Positions 4,009-31,077 of a DNA stretch of 41,354 nt are shown here, in pieces (position 1 is the first letter of the stretch; the number at the start of each line of letters is the position of its first letter). A program made the position numbers and the translations under genes. The notes under the pieces were generated by a model. It saw nothing but the letters and a program-made list of their open reading frames with translations, made no database searches and was not told where the DNA came from. Source of the stretch: an uncultured Corynebacterium sp. (lineage in GTDB: Bacteria > Actinomycetota > Actinomycetes > Mycobacteriales > Mycobacteriaceae); assembly GCF_945649885.1 (NCBI RefSeq), contig NZ_CALZFS010000008.1, forward strand, positions 1 through 41,354, read 5' to 3'.

Positions 4009-4028
4009 TCAGTCAGTTTCCGCCTTGT

Positions 4029-4086
4029 AGCTACCGCATCCCCTACCGTGCACGTCAAGTGCACTGCATGAGGGGGTGCGGTAGCT
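4029..4086 (+). terminator. Intrinsic terminator after the PAC2 gene
   Basis: agctaccgcatcccct (4029-4044) pairs with agggggtgcggtagct (4071-4086), followed by cttttag; nested gtgcac repeats in the loop. Confidence 0.75.
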
Positions 4087-4149
4087 CTTTTAGCGGTAGA
4101 GCACGCAGGTTGTCTCGCATGTCCGGTGTGTTGGCTACGCTTGATAGCT

Positions 4150-6690
4150 GTGAACCTTTCTCAGATGCTGCCCGACCTTTCCGATGTCCCTGCCTCACTG
4201 CTGGATGAATCCATCTTTGATTCCTTCCTGGCATGGACCACTGAGCGGGGGATCAGCCTGTACCCCGCTCAGGAAGAGGCATCACTGGCTGTTCTGACCG
4301 GTGACAATGTCATCCTTGCCACACCAACTGGTTCGGGTAAATCCATGGTGGCCATTGCTGCGCACTTCATCGCCATGGCCCGTGGCCAACGCAGTTTCTA
4401 CACGGCTCCGATCAAAGCCCTGGTGAGTGAGAAGTTCTTCTCCCTGTGTGAGATTTTCGGGGCGGAGAATGTTGGCATGATGACCGGTGACGCCACAGTC
4501 AACGGCAGTGCCCCGATCATCTGCGCCACCGCGGAGATTGTGGCCAATATTGCACTGCGTGATGGTGCCTCAGCTGCCATTGATCAGGTGGTCATGGATG
4601 AGTTCCACTATTATTCTGAGCCTGATCGTGGTTGGGCCTGGCAGGTTCCACTGCTTGAGCTGCCCAAAGCCCAGTTCTTGTTAATGTCGGCCACACTCGG
4701 TGACACTGAATGGTTGGAGAAGGACCTCACGGCTCGCACAGCCCGAACCACGAGCTTTGTGGGCAACACTGAGCGCCCTGTCCCCCTAGAATTCTCCTAT
4801 GTATACACACCTGTACACGAGACCATTGAAGGTCTGCTGAAGGATGCCAAGGCGCCGGTCTATGTTGTGCACTTCACCCAGCGTGATGCTATTGAGCGCG
4901 CCCAGGCCATGACCTCCATGACGGTGGTAACCAAGGAAGAAAAGGAAAAGATCGCTGCAGAGATCGGGGATTTCCGCTTCACCACCACCTTCGGCAAAAC
5001 GCTGTCCAAACTGGTGCGCCGTGGCATTGGTGTGCACCATGCCGGCATGCTGCCAAAATACCGCCGGTTGGTGGAGAAACTCTCACAGACAGGTCTGCTC
5101 AAGGTCATCTGTGGCACCGATACCCTGGGCGTGGGCATCAACGTCCCTATCAGGACGGTTCTGATGACCGGCCTGGTGAAATTTGATGGCACCCGTGAGC
5201 GTGTCCTGAAGTCCCGTGAATTCCACCAGATCGCCGGACGCGCGGGACGTGCCGGTTATGACACTGTCGGCCACGTGGTGATCCAGGCACCCGAGCATGA
5301 GATTGAAAACTCCCGCCTGCGGGAAAAGGCTGGCTCTGATCCGAAGAAGCTGAAGAAACTACGTCTGAAGGCAACACGTCCAGGGGAGGTCACCTGGACC
5401 ATGAAAACCTATGAGCGTCTGACCACTGCGGAGCCGGAGCAGCTGACCAGCCAGTTCAAGGTCACCAACTCCATGATCCTCAATGTGGTTGCCCGCCCAG
5501 GCGATGGCTATGACCACTTCAAGCACCTGTTGCGCACCAACCATGACACCCGGGCCAAGCAGAACAAGGATATCCTCACCACCTTGGAACTCTTCCGTGG
5601 TCTGGTTAATGCTCAGATCATTGACAAGGTTATTGATGGTCCTGATGAAACCGGCCGTGTCTATGCTCTGACTGCAGATCTGCAGCGAGACTTCGCTCTC
5701 AACCAACCTCTGGCACCATTTGCCCTGGCTGCACTGACGCTGCTGGATAAGGAATCTGACACCTACAACCTCGATGTGATCAGCATTTTTGAAGCCATCC
5801 TGGATGACCCCCGGCAGATCCTCATTGCACAGCAGAAGGCACGACGCGGTGAGGAGATCGCAGCACTGAAGGCTGAGGGGGTTGACTACAACGACCGCAT
5901 GTCCATCATCGAAGATGTCACCTGGCCAAAACCACTGGAAGAGGAACTCGATCAGGCCTTTGAAACATTCCGTGAGGGACACCCCTGGGCAAAGGAGTTT
6001 GAGCTCAGCCCGAAGTCTGTTGTCCGTGACATGATCGAACACGGCATGACCTTCTCTGACCTGGTGGCTACCTATGGTGTTGCCCGATCAGAGGGTGTGG
6101 CACTGCGTTATCTCACCGATGCTTGGCGTACCCTGCGGCAGACACTGCCGAAGGAGAACTCCACGGAGGAACTGGAAGACATCGTGGAGTGGCTCGGTGA
6201 ACTGATCCGTCAGGTGGATTCCTCCCTGGTGGACGAGTGGGCCCAGATGGCGGATCCGGATGCTCCGATCTCCAAGGAGACCCTGGAACGTGAGCTTGCC
6301 TTCGGCGTGGAGGACCCCACGGCACTCACTGCGAACCGCAGGGCATTTACCATCATGATCCGCAATGCGATGTTCAGATTGGTGGAACTCTTCGCCTACG
6401 AAAAGGAGGATCAGCTGGCCACCATGACGGACTACTTGGATGAGGTACCGGATTTCCCTGCTGCCATGGATGCCTACTTCGATGAATACGCTGATCTGGA
6501 TACCGGCCAGGGTGCCCGTGGTCCTGAGTACTTTACCCTGGATGCCACTGGTCGTTCCTGGACAGTACGACAAACCGTCAAGGATCCTGAAGGAGACAAC
6601 TCCTTTGCTTTTGTCGGTGTTGTTGATCTCGATGCCTCTGATGAAGCTGGAGAGGTTCGCTTCTCCTCCCTGGAGATCTCCCAGAGTTAG
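4150..6690 (+). CDS. DEAD/DEAH-box RNA helicase, Ski2/Mtr4-like, with C-terminal DUF3516-type region
   Basis: Walker A ATPTGSGKS, MDEFHYY (DExH), MSATLGD, HHAGMLPKYRRLVE, HQIAGRAGRAG. GTG start at 4150 preferred over the longest ORF start 4126. Confidence 0.88.
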   Translation: MNLSQMLPDLSDVPASLLDESIFDSFLAWTTERGISLYPAQEEASLAVLTGDNVILATPTGSGKSMVAIAAHFIAMARGQRSFYTAPIKALVSEKFFSLCEIFGAENVGMMTGDATVNGSAPIICATAEIVANIALRDGASAAIDQVVMDEFHYYSEPDRGWAWQVPLLELPKAQFLLMSATLGDTEWLEKDLTARTARTTSFVGNTERPVPLEFSYVYTPVHETIEGLLKDAKAPVYVVHFTQRDAIERAQAMTSMTVVTKEEKEKIAAEIGDFRFTTTFGKTLSKLVRRGIGVHHAGMLPKYRRLVEKLSQTGLLKVICGTDTLGVGINVPIRTVLMTGLVKFDGTRERVLKSREFHQIAGRAGRAGYDTVGHVVIQAPEHEIENSRLREKAGSDPKKLKKLRLKATRPGEVTWTMKTYERLTTAEPEQLTSQFKVTNSMILNVVARPGDGYDHFKHLLRTNHDTRAKQNKDILTTLELFRGLVNAQIIDKVIDGPDETGRVYALTADLQRDFALNQPLAPFALAALTLLDKESDTYNLDVISIFEAILDDPRQILIAQQKARRGEEIAALKAEGVDYNDRMSIIEDVTWPKPLEEELDQAFETFREGHPWAKEFELSPKSVVRDMIEHGMTFSDLVATYGVARSEGVALRYLTDAWRTLRQTLPKENSTEELEDIVEWLGELIRQVDSSLVDEWAQMADPDAPISKETLERELAFGVEDPTALTANRRAFTIMIRNAMFRLVELFAYEKEDQLATMTDYLDEVPDFPAAMDAYFDEYADLDTGQGARGPEYFTLDATGRSWTVRQTVKDPEGDNSFAFVGVVDLDASDEAGEVRFSSLEISQS

Positions 6691-6875: not shown

Positions 6876-7868
6876 ATGAGCAATAAGGAGTACCGGCCCA
6901 CACTCGCACAGCTGCGTACGTTCGCCACGATCGCGGAGTGCAAACATTTTGGCACTGCCGCCACTAAACTATCCATTTCTCAGCCTTCGTTGTCCCAGGC
7001 TCTGGTAGCCTTGGAGACAGGTCTCGGGGTCCAGCTCATCGAGCGTTCCACCCGTAAGGTCATTGTCACCCCGGCAGGCGAAAAGCTCCTTCCCTATGCT
7101 AAATCCACCCTGGATGCGGCAGAGTCCTTCCTCGCCCATGCCCGCGGTGCAAATGGTTCCCTCACCGGTCCCCTGACGGTGGGAATCATCCCCACCATTG
7201 CCCCGTATATCCTGCCGTCGATGCTGTCCATCGTGGATAATGAGTACCCGGATCTGGAGCCTCACATCGTCGAGGATCAGACCAAGCACCTGTTGTCGCT
7301 CCTGCGCGACGGTGCGATCGACGTAGCCATGATGGCGCTGCCCTCTGAGTCTCCGGGGATGAAGGAAATCCCTTTGTATGATGAGGACTTCGTGGTGGTT
7401 GTTCCTGAGGGGCACACCCTTGATGGGCGTCAGGATCTGCAGTTGGCTGCTCTGGATGAGCTGGACCTGCTTCTTCTTGATGATGGCCACTGCCTCCACG
7501 ATCAGATCGTGGATCTGTGCCGTCGGGCAGACATCAACCCAATCAGCTCCACCACTGCTATCACCAGGGCATCCAGCCTCACCACCGTCATGCAGCTGGT
7601 GGTTGCCGGCCTGGGTTCCACCCTGATACCGGTCAGCGCTGTGCCGTGGGAATGCACCCGTTCGGGCCTGTCCACGGCAAACTTCGGTCCTGATGTCACT
7701 GCAAACCGCCGTGTCGGCCTGGTCTATCGTTCCTCATCCTCACGGGCAGAGGAGTTCCAGCAGTTCGCCAAGATTTTACAGCGTGCGTTCATGGAAGCCC
7801 GGACCAAAGCACATGACACCGGTCTGCAGTTGAAGGCCGGCGATTCAATCATTCCGGTCGAGAGCTAG
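6876..7868 (+). CDS. oxyR: LysR-family hydrogen-peroxide sensing regulator OxyR
   Basis: N-terminal LysR HTH (TLAQLRTFATIAECKHFGTAATKLSISQPSLSQALVALE); effector domain with DDGHCLHDQIVDLCR (two Cys) as in OxyR. Alternative ATG at 6864. Confidence 0.88.
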   Translation: MSNKEYRPTLAQLRTFATIAECKHFGTAATKLSISQPSLSQALVALETGLGVQLIERSTRKVIVTPAGEKLLPYAKSTLDAAESFLAHARGANGSLTGPLTVGIIPTIAPYILPSMLSIVDNEYPDLEPHIVEDQTKHLLSLLRDGAIDVAMMALPSESPGMKEIPLYDEDFVVVVPEGHTLDGRQDLQLAALDELDLLLLDDGHCLHDQIVDLCRRADINPISSTTAITRASSLTTVMQLVVAGLGSTLIPVSAVPWECTRSGLSTANFGPDVTANRRVGLVYRSSSSRAEEFQQFAKILQRAFMEARTKAHDTGLQLKAGDSIIPVES

Positions 7869-7921
7869 GTAACTGCCTGAGGGATTTATCCTCACCTGTA
7901 GGGAACGCAACAAAGCAGCAA

Positions 7922-7984
7922 TAAGCCCTCCATCATGTCTTGATTATTTCTCATGGAAATAATCAAGACATGATGGAGGGCTTA
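7922..7984. repeat. Perfect 29-bp inverted repeat with 5-nt loop
   Basis: 7922-7950 taagccctccatcatgtcttgattatttc; loop tcatg; 7956-7984 exact reverse complement. Lies between convergent genes. Confidence 0.95.
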
Positions 7985-8035
7985 ATTATATTGAACGGCC
8001 CTTTCATCTGAAGGTCGCCACAATACCTGTTGAGA

Positions 8036-9238
8036 TTAGTTGCGTACTTCTACAGGAACCTTGCCACCACTCATCTGTCGGTACAGGTGTGTGGAGATGA
8101 GGATACTTGCCGGAAGCAGCACCACAAGGCCAAGCGTCAGAGTAATGATGGTGCCAACAATCGCAACGATTCCAGCGAGGATGCTGTAGGCCAACAGCTT
8201 GAAATAGTTGCGGGCCGCATCAACAAAACCATGACGGATTGCGCCCATGGCATTTTCCCTGCCGTCAGCGGCGTAGTACACCCAGTAACTGTGCAGTGGG
8301 GCCACCAACATGCTGATCACCATGTAGAGCATCAACCGTCCCATGATTGCCTCATCAAGGGTCATCGCAGCGGTGGTTTCGTTCACCTGGATCAGGTCCG
8401 CGGTATCAGACTGGAGAAGCCCTGAGACCACCAATCCGACAACGCCGATGATGACCAGAAGGAGAAGTGTCTGTCCCACGTTGATGGGACGGAAGAAATC
8501 AGCAAGTCGTGCTCTACGACCATCGACTTCCAAGAGTGCGCCACGCATGACACAGATCATCACTGCCCAGCTGAAGATAGCAATCACGATGTTCATGATG
8601 AGGTTGGCCGGTGACAGTATGTCACCGCTCATCACTGCATCAGAGTCAAAAGCCACCATCATGAAGCTCAGAGTGATGGAGAGAAACATGAATGCCACGC
8701 CCAGCACGACGGTGCCCAGGATCCAGATGCCGGGGTTGGCAAAAATGGATTTGAAACCAAACCGTACGGCGCGCATGATGTTGATTTTTCCATCAGACTT
8801 TTCCAGCGCCTCCCCGCCCTGGCCTGATCCGCCACCATCGTAACCATTATTGCCCGGACCATAACCACTATAGGGCTGTCCATAAGACTGGTAGCTGGAA
8901 TCACTGCCTGCACCGGTGCCCGGGTAGGGCTGGTATCCGGAATAGGAGGAGCCGGTTGAACCGGTTGAGCCATACCCGTAGTCCCCACCCGGCGCGCGGT
9001 AGTTCGGGTTGAATCCCCCGGGAGCATCTTCAGGGTGGTTGGTGGGCTGATAGCGCTTGGGGAAGCCTCCGCTCTCATCGCCACGGTCGTTGCCTACACC
9101 CCGCTCATCACCGTCATCGGAACCTGAGGATGATGCGGGTGGTTCTTCAGCAGGCTTTTCCGAATTGAAATCGGAAGGTCCCTCCTGATTGTCATCATCT
9201 CCGGGGTTCAGGTCTGGTCTCTCATCATCGCGACTCAT
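8036..9238 (-). CDS. Multi-pass membrane protein with Tyr/Gly/Ser/Pro-rich cytoplasmic N-terminus
   Basis: About 180 aa of low-complexity acidic then YG-rich sequence, followed by several hydrophobic segments (GIWILGTVVLGVAFMFLSITLSFMMVAF etc.). Confidence 0.8.
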   Translation of the reverse strand: MSRDDERPDLNPGDDDNQEGPSDFNSEKPAEEPPASSSGSDDGDERGVGNDRGDESGGFPKRYQPTNHPEDAPGGFNPNYRAPGGDYGYGSTGSTGSSYSGYQPYPGTGAGSDSSYQSYGQPYSGYGPGNNGYDGGGSGQGGEALEKSDGKINIMRAVRFGFKSIFANPGIWILGTVVLGVAFMFLSITLSFMMVAFDSDAVMSGDILSPANLIMNIVIAIFSWAVMICVMRGALLEVDGRRARLADFFRPINVGQTLLLLVIIGVVGLVVSGLLQSDTADLIQVNETTAAMTLDEAIMGRLMLYMVISMLVAPLHSYWVYYAADGRENAMGAIRHGFVDAARNYFKLLAYSILAGIVAIVGTIITLTLGLVVLLPASILISTHLYRQMSGGKVPVEVRN

Positions 9239-26214: not shown

Positions 26215-27777
26215 TTAACCGGCTGGTTTTTCCTCACCGGTTGACTCTTGGGAAACCTCGTCACGGTCAACTATGAACTGTTTCAGCTCACTGGCCAGCT
26301 GCGCGGGGATGCGCACATCGATGAGGGTTCCATCCTCGGCGTACTCCTCTGACAACACGGTGCCGTGCTCGTGCAGGCGGGAGATGATGTCACCACGGGT
26401 GAAGGGGATCCGCAGCAGCAGGTGGGTGTCCCTGGAGTTGAGGAACAGCTCAATGCGGGCTTCCAGCTCCTTGATCCCCTCCCCTGTCAACGCGGAGACG
26501 AACACCACATCATCAATGGCGTGGCGTAGTTCGGCCAGGGTCAGTGGATCAGCCTGGTCGATCTTGTTCACCACGATGATCTCCGGCGGTGGGGTTTCCC
26601 CGGTGGTGCGAACAATGTCACTGATCACTGTATTCACCGCTTCAATCTGCTTCAGCGGAAAGGGGTCAGACCCATCAACCACATGCAGCATGAGATCAGA
26701 CTCCACCACTTCTTCAAGGGTGGATTTGAAGGCCTCGACCAGTGATGTCGGCAAGTGTCGGATGAAACCGACGGTGTCGGTGAACACCACGTGGCGTCCA
26801 TCGGCAAGTTCTGCCTTACGTGTAGTCGGGTCCAGGGTGGCAAAGAGCGCGTCCTCCACCAGCACACCTGCACCTGTCATGGCATTGATCAGGGAGGATT
26901 TTCCAGCGTTGGTATAACCGGCGATGGAGATCTGCGGAACCAGTGATGCTGAACGCTGTGAGCGTTTGACGCTGCGCGCGGTATCCATGCCGGAGAGTTC
27001 GCGGCGCAGGCGTGCCATGTCGGAGCGCAGACGACGACGGTCCGCCTCGATCTTGGTCTCACCCGGTCCACGAAGACCCACGCCACCATTGGAACCTGCA
27101 CGGCCACCTGCCTGACGCGACAGGCTGCCGCCCCAACCACGCACACGGCTGATCAGATATTCCATCTGTGCCAGCGCCACCTGTGCCTTACCCTCCCGGG
27201 ACTTAGCGTGTTGGGCAAAGATATCCAGAACCAGCATGGTGCGGTCAATGACCTTGATGTTGAGTTCACGTTCCAGTGCCACCAGCTGGGAGGGGCTGAG
27301 TTCACCATCACAGACAACCGTGTCGGCACCGGTGGCTTCCAGGATCTCCTTGAGCTCACGGACCTTGCCGGAACCGATATAGGTGCCTGGATCCGGCTTG
27401 TCACGTTTCTGATAGAGCGAATCAATGACTTCTGCTCCAGCAGTATCGGCAAGGGCAGCCAGTTCCGCCAGGCTCGCATCAATTTCAGCGGTGGTGCCTT
27501 CAGTCCACACACCGACGAGGATGACCCGCTCCAGACGGAGTTTTCGGTATTCAACCTCATAGATATCGGCTGCGTCATCAGAGTGAATGGTGGTTTCACG
27601 GCGCCTGCTGGCATCGCGGTCTTCAAGGTCGAGTTCGCCCACAGAAGGGGCTTCGTCGCTGCGGATCAGTCCGGTGAGGTCAAAACCGGTGGTTTCCGTC
27701 ACTGCCGGCTGCTTCACATGGTCGTGGAAAGCTTCGGCGAGGAGGTCCTCATGATTATTCTTCTTCTTTTCATCCAT
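26215..27777 (-). CDS. hflX: GTPase HflX
   Basis: GWGGSLSRQAGGRAGSNGGVGLRGPGETKIEADRRRLR; GYTNAGKSSLINAMTG; VVNKIDQAD. Start at 27777 (MDEKKK) inferred; ORF starts 27843. Confidence 0.95.
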   Translation of the reverse strand: MDEKKKNNHEDLLAEAFHDHVKQPAVTETTGFDLTGLIRSDEAPSVGELDLEDRDASRRRETTIHSDDAADIYEVEYRKLRLERVILVGVWTEGTTAEIDASLAELAALADTAGAEVIDSLYQKRDKPDPGTYIGSGKVRELKEILEATGADTVVCDGELSPSQLVALERELNIKVIDRTMLVLDIFAQHAKSREGKAQVALAQMEYLISRVRGWGGSLSRQAGGRAGSNGGVGLRGPGETKIEADRRRLRSDMARLRRELSGMDTARSVKRSQRSASLVPQISIAGYTNAGKSSLINAMTGAGVLVEDALFATLDPTTRKAELADGRHVVFTDTVGFIRHLPTSLVEAFKSTLEEVVESDLMLHVVDGSDPFPLKQIEAVNTVISDIVRTTGETPPPEIIVVNKIDQADPLTLAELRHAIDDVVFVSALTGEGIKELEARIELFLNSRDTHLLLRIPFTRGDIISRLHEHGTVLSEEYAEDGTLIDVRIPAQLASELKQFIVDRDEVSQESTGEEKPAG

Positions 27778-27986
27778 TGTCAACCATTGTTCCACGTTCC
27801 TGACCTGGGAAGCCAGAGGTTGAGCAACGCTGCTAGCGATCAAACCTGTCTTCGATCAGCATTCCCATCACAACACTCCCCCTGATTCTGTCTTGAATAT
27901 GCTCTAGAACACTGTCTGGGCACGGTTCCTGTGGATGGGGAAAGTCAACGTGACTCCGGGTTGGCCCTCGGGATAGACTATTGCGC

Positions 27987-28745
27987 ATGACTAATGACCT
28001 GAAGAGTATCGGAATGGACTTCGTCCGCTGGCAGGATGCAGTGGAGGCGGCCATCGCCTCGGAGCGTCTTGAGGTAACGGGCGAGGTCCGTGGTGGCCAG
28101 CTCATCCAGTTCTCTGATGATTCCGGCGCCCAGATCAACATCCTGGCTGTTGAGCCTTTTGCCACCTATGCGGGTTTCACCTCCAGCACGGTGGCCTATG
28201 GCCACGTCAGCATGATCAATGATGTCCTGGCGCTGATCGACATCATCGATCCCTTTGGCAACAATGTCACCACCGTCACCGCCAACCTGGCGCAGGGCCC
28301 TCTCCTGGTTGATGAACCTCTTCAGCGCTGGCAGATGCTGGCTGTCACAGCGCTGGGCATGGACGTGGATATCCACGCCAATGCGGATGAGTACCTCCTC
28401 AATGGTGGTGAGGTTGTCGGCATGCTGGTGTCTGAGGGTGCGCTTCAGGTGTCCAGTGGTAGCGGCGCCAGCATCCCGGATGCCTCCGCAGAGTTCTCCG
28501 CCCGCGTGCTCTCCTCTGAATACCGCATCAATGCATTGACCGGCCAGCGGTTCATCCACGCCACCGTTGACGGCTTCTTCGCCTTCGATCTCTGCCTCCC
28601 GGACGCAGAGGAACTCCCGGCGCGGGATTCCATCATCTCCGGCAAGATCATGCTCACCGCATCGGTGATTCCTCAGGCCGGTGGCGGTGGCTGCGGTGGC
28701 GGTGGTGGTTGCGGCTCCGGTTCCTGTGGCTGCGGTGGACACTAG
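27987..28745 (+). CDS. Uncharacterised protein with C-terminal Gly/Cys/His-rich tail
   Basis: 252-aa ORF from ATG 27987 ending QAGGGGCGGGGGCGSGSCGCGGH; no recognised domain. Confidence 0.8.
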   Translation: MTNDLKSIGMDFVRWQDAVEAAIASERLEVTGEVRGGQLIQFSDDSGAQINILAVEPFATYAGFTSSTVAYGHVSMINDVLALIDIIDPFGNNVTTVTANLAQGPLLVDEPLQRWQMLAVTALGMDVDIHANADEYLLNGGEVVGMLVSEGALQVSSGSGASIPDASAEFSARVLSSEYRINALTGQRFIHATVDGFFAFDLCLPDAEELPARDSIISGKIMLTASVIPQAGGGGCGGGGGCGSGSCGCGGH

Positions 28746-28782
28746 TCCCACCAGCTATGTTTAAGCTTCTCTTTTAGACAGC

Positions 28783-28825
28783 ACCACCCCACAGCATCAG
28801 AATTAATCTGATGTTGTGGGGTGGT
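28783..28825 (+). terminator. Terminator hairpin
   Basis: accaccccacagcatcaga / tctgatgttgtggggtggt, 19-bp stem with one G-T pair, 5-nt loop. Confidence 0.8.
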
Positions 28826-28955
28826 TTGTTATTCATCACGGATTTCTCATGCAAATCTTGCACAACAAGTGCAAAGTTCTTGTGCATCGTTGAAATATCA
28901 CGGTTACTCTGAAGATGACCCCCACATTTTTCCCATTGAAGATCAGGACCAGCCG

Positions 28956-29495
28956 ATGTCAGACCTGACGCCTTTTGAGAATGGTGGCCCACCTGCTTCC
29001 CGGTGGCCACTCGCACTCATCGGATTCTGCTGTCTGATTTTGGTTTTGTGGCTAAAGGTTCCCGGCGTGATCCTGGCGGGCCTGATTGTTGCTACCGTGT
29101 TCTCCTTCACCCGACTTCGCCCCATCTCCCCCGAGGTGTCCTCCCTGATGACCTCGATCCGATTATCCGCTGATGAGATCGCCGAGGTGCAGGAGGAGTG
29201 GGACAACTACATCAATAGCACTGATGCTGATGCCCTGGCGGACCGTACTCTCCACCGCCCGGCACTGGCTGATCCGGACTGTAATGATCCCGCCATTGAA
29301 AAATTCCACTTTGAGCTGTCGAATGCCCATCGCTTTCTCGGACGTCTCAATGTCCGTCTGAATTCCAGTCCCACGGTGCCCCAGTTGGAAGGTCTGTTGC
29401 GGGTTACCGATGAGCGCGCTCTGGAGCTGCGGGAGTCCTGGTTGTCTGCCCGCAAGGCGGCCCACCGCTTGGGCCGTGACTACGGGCTGAACTGA
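28956..29495 (+). CDS. Uncharacterised small membrane-anchored protein
   Basis: MSDLTPFENGG...; hydrophobic hairpin WPLALIGFCCLILVLWLKVPGVILAGLIVATVFSF then soluble helical domain. Start inferred. Confidence 0.7.
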   Translation: MSDLTPFENGGPPASRWPLALIGFCCLILVLWLKVPGVILAGLIVATVFSFTRLRPISPEVSSLMTSIRLSADEIAEVQEEWDNYINSTDADALADRTLHRPALADPDCNDPAIEKFHFELSNAHRFLGRLNVRLNSSPTVPQLEGLLRVTDERALELRESWLSARKAAHRLGRDYGLN

Positions 29496-29525
29496 TACCA
29501 GCACCGTGGCCCCTGCGGGGATCTG

Positions 29526-30431
29526 TCAGAGGTCCAGGGTTTCGAGCGCCTGTGTGGTGACGTCCCCGGCGGCATCCAGCCAGGAGATGCGGTGGTCGCG
29601 GTTGAACCAGGCTCGTTGGCGGCGGACATAACGGCGTGTGCCGGTGACGGTGCGTTCTACAGCCTCATCCCATGTGAGGGTTCCGGCCAGCGCGTCAAGT
29701 ACCTGGGCATAGCCAATGGCACGACCTGCCGTTGAATCTGATATCAACCCCTGGTTCTTGACCAGGCCCTTGACTTCATCAACAAAACCCTGATCAAACA
29801 TCAAGGATGTACGCAGTTCAATGCGGGGGTTCAACCATTCCGAGGTGGTGCGCAGACCCAGGATCTGAGTCCCCCAGCGGGGAGCGGCATTCTTGGGCGG
29901 CTGGCTTGCTTGGAAGGGCTGTCCGGTCAATTCAATGACTTCCAGGGCACGCACGGTGCGTCGGGGGTCGTTGTTTTCAATGATTGCTGCAGCCTGTGGA
30001 TCCTGTGCCTGCAGTTCAGCATGAAGTGCCGTCACACCGATCTGAGCAAGACGGTTTTCCCACCTCGTCCGGACCTCCGGATCTGTGGGTGGGAACTGCC
30101 AGTCATCGACCAGGGACTGCACGTACAGCATGGAGCCACCCACCAGGATCGGCGTTTTGCCGCGTGCCATGATCCCTTCCACATCAGCAACCGCCTCCTG
30201 TTGATAACGGGCCACCGATGCGGTTTCTGTGACCTCGAGGACATCAAGCTGGTGGTGTGGGACACCCTCACGTTCCTCCGGCGTCAGTTTCGCGGTGCCG
30301 ATATTCATACCACGGTAGAGCTGCATGGAATCCACGTTGACCACTTCACCGTCAAGTTTTTTCGCCAGCGCGATGCCCAGGGCTGATTTTCCTGATGCCG
30401 TGGGGCCGACAACGGCAATGGGTGTCACCAT
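29526..30431 (-). CDS. miaA: tRNA dimethylallyltransferase
   Basis: [72 protein letters not shown]. Confidence 0.97.
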
Positions 30432-30432
30432 C

Positions 30433-31077
30433 TTATGATTCCTCTTTTTCTTCCACGTCAATAGTCCATACCGCCACATATCGGCCCACACCGTGCGAGG
30501 TGTCCGCAGCAATCAACTCCGCTGACTCCACCTTTCTCACAAGCTGGGCTAATTCAAGCCACAACCCAGGTTCGCGTACGGCACCGGCAGCCAATTCCTC
30601 TTCACTCATGGAATCCGGCTCTCCCGCCAGCAGGTTGCGGCACCACTGATCAACGTCAGCAGCGCCGGCGACAAGCGATGACGGTGCGCGCGGGGTCAGC
30701 CCGGTAGATCCGTCCAACGCGACCACGGTGAGCGCTCCAGCGCTTATCAACGCCAGATTCTCACCCACCGCACGTACCCGTGGCTCAAGCTCATCGCCCA
30801 GCGCATAACGCTGGATCAGTTCCGGCAGGTGCGAGCCCCCACTTAGTTGGATCTGGGGTGCGCCCCAAGCCCGGAAACTACCTGGATGAGCTGTATGCCA
30901 GGCATCAGCACGTGATCCCACAAGATCAACAGGCAGGTTGTTTCCTGCCAGGTACTGGCCGAAAAGTGATCTGATCTGCTGGAGCAGAGTTGCTCCGACG
31001 GCATCTGCAGGTGCCAACTCACCGACGAGCGCGGGGCTTCCAGGCATGATGATGAGCGTTGTTTTCACAGCTCCCAC
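30433..31077 (-). CDS. Conserved mia-cluster hypothetical protein (Rv2728c-type)
   Basis: ORF directly upstream of miaA; internal [34 protein letters not shown]; position matches Rv2728c / C. glutamicum neighbourhood. Confidence 0.75.

Follow-up and report, generated by a model that had tools for sequence, protein, structure and literature searches.

Loss of dapF between miaA and hflX in an uncultured Corynebacterium that very probably relies on the Ddh route to meso-DAP

Introduction

In these bacteria meso-diaminopimelate (meso-DAP) is needed for both lysine and peptidoglycan. The dehydrogenase Ddh forms meso-DAP from tetrahydrodipicolinate, ammonia and NADPH in a single reaction that avoids the succinylase branch with its enzymes DapD, DapC, DapE and DapF. 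In Mycobacterium tuberculosis the gene for the last of these, dapF, encoding diaminopimelate epimerase, lies between miaA and hflX (Rv2727c–Rv2725c). Corynebacterium glutamicum has both the succinylase and the dehydrogenase routes. Of its succinylase branch, the dapD and dapF steps are reported to be indispensable and the dapC and dapE steps dispensable; a strain deleted for dapD produces lysine via Ddh alone (PMC8396482). C. ulceribovis has been reported to be without dapE and dapF and was assigned the dehydrogenase route (PMC4572677).

Here we describe a locus in a 41,354-nucleotide window (the whole stretch of DNA analyzed) from an uncultured Corynebacterium sp. whose genome assembly (hereafter G000) is a draft of 2.83 Mb in 207 contigs, 96% complete. 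Its HflX is 84–91% identical to those of nine relatives from the C. glutamicum clade, and by this protein the genome is placed as a member of that clade. It shares with C. glutamicum the gene order around miaA and hflX and a Ddh closely related to the enzyme of the 1dap structure, but differs in having a succinylase branch that is broken at both its first and its last step. The loss of dapF alongside a dehydrogenase route has already been reported from C. ulceribovis, where that route was likewise proposed for meso-DAP and dapC is still present; G000 differs in the genes that remain, as C. ulceribovis was reported to be without dapE and with dapD, whereas G000 keeps dapE and has no canonical dapD.

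Results

The dapF site between hflX and miaA

The left boundary of the interval is the GTPase gene hflX (26215–27843, minus strand; Pfam GTP-bdg_N, GTP-bdg_M and HflX_C) and the right boundary is the tRNA dimethylallyltransferase gene miaA (29526–30512, minus strand; Pfam IPPT, PF01715, 1.5e-82), whose homology to its relatives starts near 30437. These are the flanks named in the initial annotation, which had delimited the interval as 27779–29525; the right end stands, but the left end overlaps the 5′ end of hflX, the gap proper being 27844–29525. As that annotation had also described, the interval holds only two uncharacterized genes, both on the plus strand and both without matches in Pfam or NCBIfam: g1 (27987–28745; 252 aa), whose position is shared by genomes with and without dapF, and g2 (28956–29495; 179 aa), for which most relatives, dapF-positive or not, have a syntenic homolog. 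The tail of g1 (28665–28745) encodes a Gly/Cys-rich C-terminus, GGGGCGGGGGCGSGSCGCGGH.

The order in the relatives is miaA-dapF-g2-g1-hflX. In all nine of the nearest ones dapF lies between miaA and g1, and in eight of these g2 lies between dapF and g1 (it was not detected in G023). Some relatives carry an extra 2.4–4.9 kb between hflX and g1 (loci L119, L120, L121, L124, L126, L132 and L137). Where the relatives, among them G046, G057, G042 and G065, have a minus-strand dapF of about 840 bases, the window has only the 30 bases from the g2 stop to the miaA stop (29496–29525), with no DapF ORF between miaA and g2. Searches of the interval by tblastn with the DapF proteins of four relatives returned nothing above chance (best E 0.85), so that a frameshifted remnant, which would have pointed to decay, is not detectable. 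An apparent 50% DapF match at 29581–29712 proved to be artefactual: the query had run upstream into miaA, and the match was gone once this part was trimmed off. Replacement of dapF by g1 or g2 was also considered and rejected: both occur beside dapF in the relatives and are thus ancestral neighbors rather than substitutes.

The adjacency of dapF and miaA, which the initial annotation had named for C. glutamicum, holds at every dapF-positive Corynebacterium locus examined, with no relocation seen, and the miaA-dapF adjacency of M. tuberculosis matches this ancestral corynebacterial state; corynebacteria differ from M. tuberculosis in the g2 and g1 genes that separate dapF from hflX, and G000 also in its loss of dapF. 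In dapF-negative genomes with a detectable g2, the match to g2 ends just 2–69 bases from the match to miaA, indicating that the losses are clean. The initial annotation had left it undecided whether dapF had moved or been lost; a profile search found no match to the DAP epimerase family (PF01678) anywhere in the 96%-complete G000 assembly, whereas the nine control genomes, C. glutamicum among them, all gave one.

Other DAP-pathway genes of this genome

The search for ddh that had been suggested alongside the absence of dapF recovered its C-terminal half (TIGR01921 residues 160–324, E 7.2e-78). The fragment stops one base short of the end of contig C74, beyond which the N-terminal half lies, and aligns to residues 158–320 of the solved C. 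glutamicum DAPDH (1dap). It keeps T169, R195, H244 and N270, which we take to be ligand positions in that structure, and its dN/dS of about 0.05 against G046 shows that the visible part of the gene is under purifying selection. The clade relative G023 has the reciprocal state, with dapF present and ddh not over the cut-off.

The gene dapB is present (contig C57), and the succinylase branch is incomplete. On contig C72 (locus L104) dapC (7195–8307) and dapE (343–1443) are intact; beside dapE lies a DapD paralog, DapD2 (1509–2516). DapD2 is the sole DapD_actino match in G000; its score of 285 bits falls short of the 441.5-bit cut-off, and no canonical dapD was found in the assembly. The position of dapD is occupied by a gene for an MFS transporter (4009–5229), next to a gene (5262–6539) whose relatives adjoin dapD in G065, G214, G034 and G023. 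This site is well inside the contig and at a locus separate from that of dapF. With dapF and canonical dapD both absent, the branch is without its first and its last step.

Decay of dapE was considered and found no support: the gene is full length, its metal-ligand motifs are in place by eye and its outgroup distance equals that of G042. DapE is only about 72% identical to those of G042 and G057, while its neighbors are 84–90% identical; these identities would fit a replacement of dapE in one of the lineages. A match in the DapD2 range persists in many genomes without dapE and dapF, including ddh-positive ones, which argues that the paralog does not track the succinylase branch and may have another role.

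dapF loss and ddh across Corynebacterium

When the interval was compared across the genus, as had also been proposed, dapF loss proved recurrent. A PF01678 match is absent from 27 of 242 Corynebacterium genomes, and ddh (TIGR01921) is above cut-off in 64 of the 242. By a tally of the listed rows ddh is present in 24/27 dapF-negative and 40/215 dapF-positive genomes, a strong association (Fisher p = 5e-13, kinship ignored). Only weak dapE matches occur in 23 of the 27 dapF-negative genomes, and 21 are without a strong canonical dapD match; dapF is the one gene missing in G076 and G170. By comparison dapC is kept in 26 of the 27, being lost only in G056, and in 241/242 overall, a near-universal retention that suggests a second function. 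G200, a draft with 7% contamination, keeps dapF and ddh with no dapD and a weak dapE match.

A tree of HflX, MiaA, a permease and a DUF349 protein (88 rows) requires dapF to change state 13 times, with no fewer than 12 of the changes on well-supported branches; given that dapF beside miaA is the general state, we read these changes as separate losses. Since dapF-positive genomes are undersampled in the tree and those chosen are mostly ddh-positive, the number is provisional, and the tree does not serve as an independent test of the link with ddh. An independent-pairs test of ddh against dapF on it likewise had no power, there being too little contrast in a sample enriched for ddh-positives. 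By this reading, some dozen independent losses of dapF have occurred in the genus, almost always in the presence of ddh.

The dapF-negative genomes without ddh are G190 (53% complete), G158 and G228. The latter two, which have dapB and lie near G227 (a single-contig genome), gave no credible ddh match in their assemblies even at an E limit of 1, and make the association imperfect. In G227 two identical 75-base sequences enclose ddh, and the stretches flanking this site in G158 and G228 fall at contig ends (loci L174, L178, L183 and L184); the missing ddh is either an assembly gap or a true loss.

Discussion

We consider it highly probable that dapF was cleanly deleted between g2 and miaA in this lineage and that the loss was tolerated because Ddh supplies meso-DAP. 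Under this proposal a deletion would have closed the g2-miaA gap to 30 bases. From the known pathway chemistry, DapB would make tetrahydrodipicolinate, which Ddh would aminate and reduce straight to meso-DAP, so that DapF would not be needed; Ddh would be active and now the sole meso-DAP source. The absence of dapF elsewhere, the presence of ddh, the broken dapD step and the genus-wide association all favor this alternative, which the initial annotation had offered, and as far as the gene content can tell this Corynebacterium very probably relies on Ddh in place of the DapF route. The intact dapC and dapE would be unexpected had the succinylase branch died long ago, and they count against the proposal, as do the kept DapD paralog and a ddh that is assembled only in its C-terminal half, which leaves an intact gene probable rather than proven. 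The retention of dapC, dapE and DapD2 could mean either that the branch was lost recently or that these genes have second functions.

Other accounts of the missing gene appear much less credible. A fragmented draft could in principle have collapsed dapF out of the contig, but the interval lies inside a contig between intact flanking genes and the same closed-up arrangement recurs in single-contig genomes of other species (such as G036, G068, G085 and G142), making such an artefact the most improbable account. Relocation of dapF to an unassembled part of the genome, for which 207 contigs at 96% completeness leave some room, is very unlikely given that dapF has stayed beside miaA at all the positive loci and that dapD has been lost too, at a site inside a contig. 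There is an equally slight chance that LL-DAP is still made via DapD2, DapC and DapE, with an unrelated epimerase in place of DapF. The intact dapC and dapE would fit this, as would the resemblance of DapD2 to DapD (among solved structures it is best matched by a tetrahydrodipicolinate N-succinyltransferase); however, DapD2 falls far under the DapD_actino cut-off, its range of matches is kept in ddh-positive genomes that have neither dapE nor dapF, no candidate for such an epimerase turned up, and with Ddh none is needed.

A wider reading of the genus, which we hold to be unlikely though less so than these, is that ddh repeatedly permits loss of the succinylase branch, with dapF as its most constant casualty and dapC and the DapD paralog kept for a second role, while a few lineages (G158 and G228) might have given up both dapF and ddh and would then obtain meso-DAP by another route.

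In the literature searched, a limited part of the whole, we found nothing directly relevant on dapD2 or on the comparative genomics of ddh, and no report of genus-wide recurrence of dapF loss. Among the present findings, this repeated loss and the almost universal presence of dapC are of greater interest. Returning to clean deletion of dapF with Ddh as the sole meso-DAP source, ddh should then be essential and growth sensitive to low ammonium. The dozen or so separate losses, nearly all in ddh-positive genomes, form a natural series showing a biosynthetic step given up when a backup exists. They predict species with an essential Ddh in which DapF inhibitors would be useless, and would permit testing whether low-ammonium habitats keep the succinylase route.
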